Source of the DNA: Actinocrinis puniceicyclus
GTDB taxonomy: Bacteria > Actinomycetota > Actinomycetes > Streptomycetales > Catenulisporaceae
Length of the DNA: 35,804 bases
Assembly: GCF_018283645.1 (NCBI RefSeq)
Contig: NZ_JAGSXH010000062.1
Coordinates: 1 to 35,804, forward strand
Direction: 5' to 3'
Below the pieces are notes generated by a model that searched no databases, was not told the DNA's origin, and saw nothing but the letters and a program-made list of their open reading frames with translations. Positions 27,518 to 30,370 of this stretch are shown here, piece after piece (positions within the stretch are counted from its first letter, which is position 1; each line of letters opens with the position of its first letter). The translations under genes were made by a program, and so were the position numbers.

Positions 27518-28449
27518 ACATCAGTATGCTGCGACCAGAGCGCAAGGCCGCCCCGGGCGCGCCGCCGGCGCGGGTGCGCATCCGGCCCGGCCGCGGCTAC
27601 CGGGTCTTCCAGGTCGTCAACGCCCTGGTTCTCACGGGCGTCGTCGTGGTCACGCTGTACCCGTTCATCAATATCCTGGCTCAGTCGTTCAGCTCCGAGC
27701 ACGCCATCGAGACCGGGCGGGTCAACCTCATCCCGCACGGGTTGAACCTCACCACCTACAAGACGGTGATGTCGGACTCGATGTTCTGGAGGAACTACCG
27801 CAACACCGTGGAGTACACCGCGGCGGCCACCTTCGTCTCGATGGTGCTGACCACCTGCTACGCCTACGTGCTGTCCAAGAAGCAGGTCAAGGGCCGCGGC
27901 GTGCTGATCGGGATCGCGGTGTTCACCATGTTCTTCAACGGCGGCCTGATCCCCAACTACGTGCTGGTCAGCCAGCTCGGGCTGCGCAACTCGATCTGGG
28001 CGATCGTGCTGCCGAACGCGATCAACGTGTTCAACCTGCTGGTGATGAAGGCGTTCTTCGAGAGCCTGCCGGGCGAACTGGAGGAGGCGGCCGCGGTCGA
28101 CGGCCTGAGCACGTACGGCATTTTGTGGCGGATCGTGCTGCCGCTGTCCAAGGCCGTGCTGGCCACGATGATCCTGTTCTACGCGGTCACTTACTGGAAC
28201 TCCTGGTTCTCCGCGTTCCTGTACATGGACCGCTCGGAACTGTTCCCGGTGACCGTGTACCTGCGCAACATCATCGCCGGCGCCACCGTCGGCGCGGACA
28301 ACGGCACCGCCGGCGACACCGCGCTGCAGATCGCGGCCAACATCCAGGCGGTGACCATCGTGCTCACCGTCATCCCGATCCTGACCGTCTACCCGTTCAT
28401 CCAAAGGTATTTCGTCTCAGGCGTGATGCTCGGCGCGGTCAAGGGCTAG
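27511..28449 (+). CDS. Carbohydrate ABC transporter permease (LplC/YtcP type)
   Basis: This 312-residue second permease subunit has first helix FQVVNALVLTGVVVVTLYPF, EAA loop ELEEAAAVDGLSTYGILWRI, and the C-terminus GVMLGAVKG typical of the family. GTG 27511 overlaps the end of the first permease (TAA 27515-27517) and has GGAG seven bases upstream, so translation is coupled. The alternative ATG 27526 lacks a ribosome site. The stop TAG (28447-28449) is formed at the edge of the inverted-repeat element that follows: its T belongs to the flanking GGCT and its AG to the element. Confidence 0.95.
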   Translation: MVNISMLRPERKAAPGAPPARVRIRPGRGYRVFQVVNALVLTGVVVVTLYPFINILAQSFSSEHAIETGRVNLIPHGLNLTTYKTVMSDSMFWRNYRNTVEYTAAATFVSMVLTTCYAYVLSKKQVKGRGVLIGIAVFTMFFNGGLIPNYVLVSQLGLRNSIWAIVLPNAINVFNLLVMKAFFESLPGELEEAAAVDGLSTYGILWRIVLPLSKAVLATMILFYAVTYWNSWFSAFLYMDRSELFPVTVYLRNIIAGATVGADNGTAGDTALQIAANIQAVTIVLTVIPILTVYPFIQRYFVSGVMLGAVKG

Positions 28450-28628
28450 GCCGTGTTCGAGAAGTATCGCCGGGGCCGCGACGCCTGCCACGCACGCTCG
28501 CTGCGTTGGCGAAGCACCCACATACGACCCACTGCGTTGATTGAACACCGCGGGGGTGCTCCGCCGCCTTGCGATCGCACGCGCCAGACGACGCGGCCTG
28601 ATCCGACGCTACTTCTCAAACACGGCCT
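28448..28628. mobile_element. MITE-like 181-bp inverted-repeat element inside the importer operon
   Basis: The ends are AGGCCGTGTT...AACACGGCCT. The first 26 bases of the two arms are identical at 23 positions after reverse complementing (AGGCCGTGTTCGAGAAGTA against AGGCCGTGTTTGAGAAGTA). Imperfect complementarity continues for about 70 bases per arm, around a central segment of roughly 40. GGCT directly flanks both ends (28444-28447 and 28629-28632), as expected for a target-site duplication. No transposase is encoded. It separates the permease genes from the binding-protein gene. In RNA it would fold into a long hairpin that could lower upstream or protect downstream mRNA. Confidence 0.7.
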
Positions 28629-28684
28629 GGCTCGCACCAATCCACCACACCGCACAACCGTCTCCCACGGACAAAGGAGTCTCA

Positions 28685-28732
28685 GTGAACGCAGCGTCCT
28701 CGATGAACGCACCGTCCTCGATGAACGCACTG
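28685..28732 (+). repeat. 18-bp tandem repeat at the binding-protein start
   Basis: The unit (G/A)TGAACGCA(G/C)CGTCCTCG occurs twice, followed by a partial third ATGAACGCA. Each unit adds Met-Asn-Ala-x-Ser-Ser and a potential start codon; only the first has a ribosome site. Confidence 0.85.
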
Positions 28733-30370
28733 ACCCGGCGGAAGATACTCACCGCGGCGGCGGGCATCGCCACTGTGGCCGTCGCCGGCTGCGGCGGCGG
28801 CGGCAGTTCGAAGACGAACAGCGACCTGTCGGGCAACCGCGTCGGCGCCATGGACAAGTTCGGCGTCGGGGATCAGTTCAAGGCCACCGCGCCGATCACC
28901 TTCCCGATCATGGTGCTGAGCAATCCCGGTTACCCGTACGACGCGAAGTGGCTGTTCTGGTCGGAGTTGACCAAGCGGACGAATATCTCGTTCCAGCCGA
29001 CCGTGGTCCCGCTCAGTGACTACAACCAGAAGCGCAGCGTCATGGTCGGCGCGGGCAACGCCCCGACGATCATCCCCAAGACCTACCACCCGGCGGAGGA
29101 GGCGTTCATCGCCGGCGGCGCGATCCTGCCGGTGAGCGACTACCTCGACCTGATGCCGAACTTCAAGGACAAGGTCGCCAAGTGGAACCTGCAGGGCGAC
29201 CTGGACCAGCTGCGCCAGGCGGACGGCAAGTTCTACCTGCTGCCCGGCCTGCACCAGGACGTCTGGGCGGACTACTCGATCGCCGTGCGCACCGACGTGC
29301 TGCAGAAACTGGGCCTGTCCACGCCGCAGACCTGGGACGACGTGCACAGCATGCTGACCGCGATGAAGGCCGCCCACCCGAATCAGTACCCGCTCTCGGA
29401 CCGGTGGAGCAGCACTCCGCCGGGGCCCGGAGCCAACAGCCTGCTCTCCGTTCTCGGCACCGCGTACAACACCCAGGCCGGCTGGACCTACCAGCACAGC
29501 ACCTGGGACGCGAACGCGGGCAAGTTCGTCTACACCGGCGCGATGGACCAGTACAAGCAGATGGTCCAGTATCTGCACACGCTGGTCAGCGAGAAGCTGA
29601 TGGATCCGGAGAGCTTCACCCAGAGCGACGACCAGGCCAAGCAGAAGTTCGCCACCGGCCAGTCGTTCGTGATCAGCGCCAACGCGCAGGAGGTGATCAA
29701 CAGCTACCGCAAGGGCATCGCCTCGATCCCGGGCGCGAGCGTCGCGAAGATCCCGGTGCCGATCGGCCCGGCCGGCGCGGTCAAGGTGGGCGTGCGCACC
29801 GAGAACGGCGTGATGATCTCCTCGAAGGCCCGCAACAGCAAGAACTTCGTCGCGATGATGCAGTTCATCGACTGGCTGTGGTACTCCGACGCCGGCGAGC
29901 TGTTCGCCAAGTGGGGCATCGAGGGCACCACGTACACCGGCAGCGTCGAGGACGGGACCTTCAAGCTGGCGCCCGACGTCACCTGGGCCGGCCTCAACCC
30001 CAAGGGCACCAAGAACCTCCAGGTCGCGTACGGGTTCTTCAACGGGGTGTTCGCCTACGGCGGCAGCACCAAGCTGCTGGACTCGCAGTTCCCGACGGAG
30101 GAGCTGGCGTTCCAGAACGTGATGAACAGCCGCCGCACGCTGCCGCTGCCGCCGCCGCATCCGCTCAGCGCCACCGACCGCGAGCAGGCGACGCTGTGGG
30201 AGACCACGCTGCTGGACTACGTCAACCAGCAGACCCTCCAGTTCATCCTCGGCCGCCGGCCGCTGAGCCAGTGGGACCAGTACGTCTCCGAACTCAAGGC
30301 CCGCAACGCGCAGCAGTACATCGATATGATCAACAAGGCGTATCAGGACTACAAGCAGAAGCACGGCTGA
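28685..30370 (+). CDS. Extracellular oligosaccharide-binding lipoprotein of ABC importer
   Basis: This 561-residue solute-binding protein belongs to the large LplA/YtcQ group. Its signal peptide carries a twin-arginine motif (T17-RRKIL) and lipobox VAGC with Cys36 as lipidation site, so export by Tat and anchoring outside the membrane are likely. Size, Trp/Tyr-rich binding region (QDVWADYSIAVRTD, WDDVHSMLTAMK) and position fit long oligosaccharide ligands. GTG 28685 is chosen because AAAGGAG lies five bases upstream. The first 15 residues come from an 18-bp in-frame tandem repeat that provides three possible starts (GTG 28685, ATG 28703, ATG 28721). It lies just after the inverted-repeat element and 53 bp before the GH39 gene. 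Confidence 0.94.
   Translation: MNAASSMNAPSSMNALTRRKILTAAAGIATVAVAGCGGGGSSKTNSDLSGNRVGAMDKFGVGDQFKATAPITFPIMVLSNPGYPYDAKWLFWSELTKRTNISFQPTVVPLSDYNQKRSVMVGAGNAPTIIPKTYHPAEEAFIAGGAILPVSDYLDLMPNFKDKVAKWNLQGDLDQLRQADGKFYLLPGLHQDVWADYSIAVRTDVLQKLGLSTPQTWDDVHSMLTAMKAAHPNQYPLSDRWSSTPPGPGANSLLSVLGTAYNTQAGWTYQHSTWDANAGKFVYTGAMDQYKQMVQYLHTLVSEKLMDPESFTQSDDQAKQKFATGQSFVISANAQEVINSYRKGIASIPGASVAKIPVPIGPAGAVKVGVRTENGVMISSKARNSKNFVAMMQFIDWLWYSDAGELFAKWGIEGTTYTGSVEDGTFKLAPDVTWAGLNPKGTKNLQVAYGFFNGVFAYGGSTKLLDSQFPTEELAFQNVMNSRRTLPLPPPHPLSATDREQATLWETTLLDYVNQQTLQFILGRRPLSQWDQYVSELKARNAQQYIDMINKAYQDYKQKHG

Follow-up and report, generated by a model that had tools for sequence, protein, structure and literature searches.

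Results

An inverted-repeat element between a permease and a lipoprotein gene

The window analysed here, a stretch of 35,804 nucleotides from Actinocrinis puniceicyclus, carries a transporter operon in which a short non-coding element separates the permease gene from the downstream gene for a solute-binding lipoprotein, laid out as follows:

27529–28449, plus strand: ABC transporter permease (sugar-permease; BPD_transp_1, Pfam PF00528, E 2.2e-6), with the start as in the Pfam scan
28446–28449, no strand: left target duplication CTAG, the family consensus flank, its TAG being the permease stop codon
28450–28626, no strand: element body, 177 bp, non-autonomous, an imperfect inverted repeat over its full length, delimited from folds and copies
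28450–28468, plus strand: left terminal inverted repeat GCCGTGTTCGAGAAGTATC, corresponding to CTAGGCCGTGTTTGAGAAGTCG on IS5-family IS
28478–28594, minus strand (the folding strand): conserved asymmetric hairpin core, from the covariance model and covariation
28608–28626, minus strand: right terminal inverted repeat, a 23/26 match with the left end
28627–28630, no strand: right target duplication CTGG, a probable decayed CTAG, CTAG/CTGG pairs being common in the family
28686–30370, plus strand: solute-binding lipoprotein, its start placed from an AAAGGAG site; no Pfam match at E 0.001

An earlier sequence-only reading of this locus had proposed a MITE-like element with inverted ends agreeing at 23 of the outer 26 bases, lacking a transposase, and with its left end inside the permease stop codon. 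Recounting gives the same figure (28448–28473 against the reverse complement of 28603–28628), no transposase was found inside the element, and the stop is the TAG at 28447–28449. The imperfect pairing that it described over some 70 bases per arm is also real, but it continues beyond the outer 26 bases to span the entire element, and minus-strand pairing of the arms is much stronger than was implied. No intrinsic terminator, terminator-like T run or promoter was found within the element. The flanking GGCT that had been pointed out is present on both sides (28444–28447 and 28629–28632), but we rejected it as the target duplication and regard it as coincidental, as the second copy in this genome and the commonest flank in relatives both give CTAG.

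The ORF finder extends the lipoprotein gene upstream over 28541–28685 of the window, to a TTG that lies within the element; since the orthologues begin further downstream, after an AAAGGAG-like motif, this extension is an artefact of the insertion.

Insertion into a CTAG that holds the permease stop codon

Lipoprotein orthologues in relatives, 52–74% identical, lie directly after the permease wherever the junction is readable. Ten orthologous operons could be read across the junction; in each, the same peptide, GAVKG, closes the permease, a stop and a gap of 33 to 110 bases follow, and the element is missing from all 10. Four of these orthologues, from another genus of the same family (G002, G010, G012 and G013), have a single TAG stop at the element's site without the element, reading GGC-TAG in three and GGT-TAG in G010, while the remaining readable orthologues use TGA. 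This is the empty site that the sequence-only reading had suggested looking for, and it indicates that the element is an insertion rather than a conserved part of the operon and that the TAG stop exists without it. The opposite pattern, in which the sequence is conserved in every orthologous operon with no copies elsewhere, had been named as grounds for an operon-specific control element; conservation at this place was found in 0 of 10 operons, and copies do occur elsewhere.

The second full copy in this genome (C379, 81% identity) has CTAG on both sides, as do most of the dozens of full copies in same-family and Streptomyces-like genomes. Given these family flanks, the target duplication here is CTAG at 28446–28449 and CTGG at 28627–28630, with one substitution. 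Many family members are flanked by a CTAG/CTGG pair, and several of these have kept CTAG on the side used as a stop codon, which fits decay of the unconstrained side of the duplication. As the duplicated CTAG retained the TAG stop, the insertion was harmless to the permease protein.

Similar placements recur across the family, whose members lie mostly at gene 3' ends. At 63 loci with definable ends, the stop codon of a nearby gene coincides exactly with the TAG of a flanking CTAG for 25 of 70 gene 3' ends, and TAG accounts for 43 of the 70 stops. With genes called by a simple codon-composition script, copies lie between convergent genes in 24 cases vs divergent genes in 6. The overlap with stop codons can be attributed to a transposase that targets CTAG, which often holds a TAG stop in these genomes. 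Where the neighbouring genes are in tandem, the core points with them 13 times and against them 16 times, so that no orientation bias relative to the host genes was seen in these contexts, which argues against a cis role in the mRNA.

A dispersed family with a conserved core and exchangeable ends

A covariance model (R1) was built from 23 diverged cores. Its hit in the window element is on the minus strand and scores 87.9 bits (E 9.5e-16), the window core being one of the 23 model rows, and the model finds 27 places in the A. puniceicyclus genome, where many core or end matches accompany the second full copy. At E 1e-5 or better, the core is present in 60 of 297 Actinomycetes genomes and in 15 of 115 genera. 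The copy search proposed from the sequence alone thus turned up further copies in both the host and related genomes, dispersed as expected of a MITE; within one genome the copies are often near identical, with many equal scores. The core also occurs on 62 plasmid records from Streptomyces and close genera, and a search of phages with one Streptomyces-type copy gave no match. A known RNA family was ruled out, as Rfam searches with the window and with ten further copy-bearing loci yielded nothing at or near the gathering score, only chance matches below it. Several copies, in more than one genome (L127, L138, L142–L144 in G037, L128 in G032, and L088), carry a second GC-rich hairpin (CTCCCCCAGCCTTCGGCCGGGGGTGCCCCCA and variants) at the same place within an element arm, without obvious duplication.

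The core is joined to about a dozen unrelated terminal repeats; clustering of the ends gave 16 groups, at least one family being split by a boundary offset, so that about a dozen is a fair count. Within the A. puniceicyclus genome (G000) alone, the core is found with the unrelated ends AGGCCGTGTTYGAGAAGT, CTAGTGTCCCGCGCCGGAAAT and AGAGGGCGTTTGGTCTGG, and within genome G037 with CTAGGGCGTGTCTGACAATTC, CTAGTGCCGCGGCGGGCAACG and CTAAGGGCTGTCCCGTAATCC. Among six representatives of different end groups, the left and right ends of one element are 94% identical and the core arms of different elements 83% identical, while the ends of different elements are 36% identical.

Two kinds of element depart from this layout. 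A 67-bp miniature in G037 (L137 337–403, genome positions 7055236–7055302) consists of little beyond its two ends and runs from CTAG to CTAG, implying that some insertions do without the core or that it has since been deleted. In Catenulispora pinisilvae, a 193-bp MITE (L278 7017–7209, also L277, L285, L288 and L289) has ends nearly the same as those of the window element, an interior that is largely different, and a weak match to the core model.

Candidate IS5-family partners

IS5-family IS in relatives share the CTAG and the ends of these elements and encode a protein with DUF4096 and DDE_Tnp_1 domains. At each end, a 1033-bp IS (L148) agrees with the MITEs L111 and L115 in 18 of 18 terminal bases, and beyond these they have nothing in common. 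The window's own end is carried by IS5-family IS of 1027–1029 bp in Geodermatophilus and Blastococcus (L270, L274, L284 and L292), with CTAGGCCGTGTTTGAGAAGTCG at one end and CTAGGCCCTGTTTGATAAGTC at the other, and core elements with this Geodermatophilus/Blastococcus type of end are found in Streptomyces gossypii and Streptomyces sp. NBC_01481. From the identity of about 18 bp at the ends alone, we infer that the elements would be mobilised in trans by an IS5-family transposase. An intact IS with the exact window end was not found in the A. puniceicyclus genome, the best candidate being an IS5 copy at a contig end with a related end (L166); the assembly comprises 430 contigs and breaks at repeats, where such a partner was possibly lost.

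Together with further genomic copies, CTAG-flanked inverted ends and an empty site, these autonomous IS with the same ends bear out the proposal of a MITE. The likeness stops at the ends: the core model had no match in the IS loci, including the five named above, and we rejected the idea that the core is an IS remnant after a search of 30 loci with DUF4096 transposase genes gave no core match. Derivation of the interior by deletion from an autonomous IS is the usual origin of a MITE, not a strict requirement, and no interior similarity of that kind was found here. This absence and the conserved, strand-specific core indicate that the element is not simply an internally deleted IS.

Folding and strand asymmetry

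Folded as RNA, the 181 bases reach -94.4 kcal/mol on the plus strand (z -6.1) and -126.9 kcal/mol on the minus strand (z -12.3), and no shuffle folds as well as the element on either strand, in agreement with the long RNA hairpin anticipated from the sequence. DNA parameters give a difference of the same kind (-48.5 plus vs -67.4 minus). The minus strand folds better because the arm mismatches are mostly G-U there. In 56 of 56 full family copies, the stronger fold accompanies one orientation of the core, that of the minus-strand-type transcript. The coreless miniature L137 and the weakly scoring L278, used as controls, favour opposite strands and show no consistent direction.

Non-Watson-Crick cells in the core alignment comprise 146 G-U vs 6 A-C, though many of these pairs are inherited and the cells are not independent events. 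Because each A-C on the folding strand corresponds to a G-U on its complement, similar numbers of both are to be expected under neutral decay. The structure was predicted on the folding strand, but the outer helix is held in one fixed register of 24 columns, and strand choice alone thus cannot produce the G-U excess. One G-U pair is present in all 23 diverged cores. In addition, both partners have changed in 17 core pairs, pairing holds in 95.9% of cells, and the covariation score was reached by 0 of 500 shuffles. Some of this covariation could be due to template switching between the arms and not to selection; however, template switching would erase the asymmetry, and its persistence points to constraint. 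In one copy (L101 201–370; G003 7136304–7136471) the outer arms are near-perfectly complementary, resembling the outcome of arm-to-arm palindrome template switching.

Relative to replication, the copies in six complete genomes show a weak strand bias: in 73 of 112 (p 0.0017), the core lies on the plus strand if the copy is left of dnaA and on the minus strand if it is to the right, a bias due mostly to G027 and G028.

Discussion

We consider it likely that the element is a CTAG-targeting MITE, mobilised in trans by an IS5-family transposase, from an Actinomycetes-wide superfamily with a strand-specific core and unrelated ends. An IS5-family DDE transposase would recognise the terminal inverted repeats of about 18 bp and insert the element at CTAG; here the target would have been the CTAG at the end of the permease gene, whose duplication kept the TAG stop. 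A new end may be gained on one side first and then reach the opposite side through template switching across the palindrome. Any effect on the operon is probably modest: the permease and lipoprotein genes are set about 180 bases further apart, with a long hairpin in between. The core may be kept because the hairpin formed by one of its strands, whether in RNA or in single-stranded DNA, serves the element's own spread or survival, and a role of this kind in the element's own propagation is the explanation we favour. The bolder proposal that the core is an independent selfish module, which spreads by repeatedly taking unrelated IS ends and so exploits different transposases, has in our estimation slightly less than an even chance of being right.

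A more conventional account would make the element an internally deleted IS with a filler interior, the likeness of its cores reflecting descent and recent bursts. The near-identical copies within genomes, as after a burst, and the match of the ends to IS5-family IS both agree with such an origin, but the IS and the elements have their ends alone in common, not their interiors. Moreover, the core is kept across Actinomycetes families while the ends are near random between groups, the same core stands with three unrelated ends in each of two genomes, and filler would hardly preserve an identical G-U pair in every diverged core with A-C cells almost absent; we therefore think this account unlikely. 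Alternatively, the asymmetry may be conserved because the core holds sites that proteins bind in double-stranded DNA: both arms contain direct GCAC/GTGC repeats, which a host or transposition protein might bind, the G-U pairing being a by-product of direct repeats that lie within an inverted one. GTGC has the same orientation in the two arms, and this repeat is retained even though the two core types differ by a one-base shift in register (columns 16–19 with 103–106). What binding sites leave unexplained, however, is that the apical stems stay paired although their sequence varies (in helix 3, 8 of 8 pairs have changed on both sides) and that the internal loop is conserved, and we judge this explanation, too, to be improbable.

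The sequence-only reading had also raised control in cis, by which an mRNA hairpin would tune permease and lipoprotein levels through attenuation or mRNA protection. The location between two co-directional genes, the stability of the plus-strand RNA (-94 kcal/mol) and the preference of the family for gene 3' ends fit such a role, but the element is absent from every orthologous operon read, has no terminator-like site, presents its weaker-folding strand in this mRNA and, as a family, shows no orientation preference among tandem genes; we consider such a role unlikely. It is very improbable that the element is REP/REPIN-like and depends on a Y1 (RAYT) transposase that works on single-stranded hairpins. 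The strand-specific imperfect hairpin and the weak replication strand bias recall such elements, but CTAG duplications together with ends of the IS5 type point to a DDE transposase and, at about 170 nt, the elements are not REP dimers.

The elements resemble the bacterial MITEs of IS5-family IS in being small, non-coding, intergenic and multicopy, with a short target duplication and IS-shared terminal repeats. Unlike those MITEs, the present element has an interior that, as far as tested, is not IS-derived and is conserved across a bacterial class, folds strand-specifically and combines with many unrelated ends. QMITEs of Coxiella burnetii likewise have a core sequence, and their transcripts are predicted to form long stable stem-loops (review, PMC10969869); where that review describes these elements, end exchange around a conserved core is not mentioned. 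With REP/REPIN palindromes the family shares abundance, intergenic location and a strand-specific hairpin, but REPs measure 20–40 bp and bear either a GTAG or a CGTC tag, those tagged GTAG being linked to tyrosine transposases, and the survey describing them leaves actinobacteria, Streptomyces included, unmentioned (PMC3733652). CGTC in the core raised the question of a CGTC-tagged REP, an identity made improbable by the much shorter length of REPs and the lack of actinobacteria in that survey (PMC3733652); the elements are about 170 bp long with CTAG duplications, unlike the tagged palindromes of 20–40 bp that define RAYT-linked REPs.

No such actinomycete family was found in the open-access literature, covered with core sequence strings and including a 2024 review of prokaryotic MITEs (subscription journals and ISfinder lay outside this scope), and we provisionally regard a family with a conserved strand-specific core and exchangeable ends as new. 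The conserved core, the strand asymmetry and the exchangeable ends all go beyond what the sequence-only reading had anticipated.

MITEs are usually seen as decayed IS with meaningless interiors. Here the roles are reversed, the interior being conserved and the ends exchangeable, in a family that is present in many Streptomyces and other actinomycetes and whose copies often overlap stop codons and separate convergent genes. If this explanation is true, the family would be a testable case of a non-autonomous element that switches transposases, and its structured hairpin would be widespread in industrially important bacteria.
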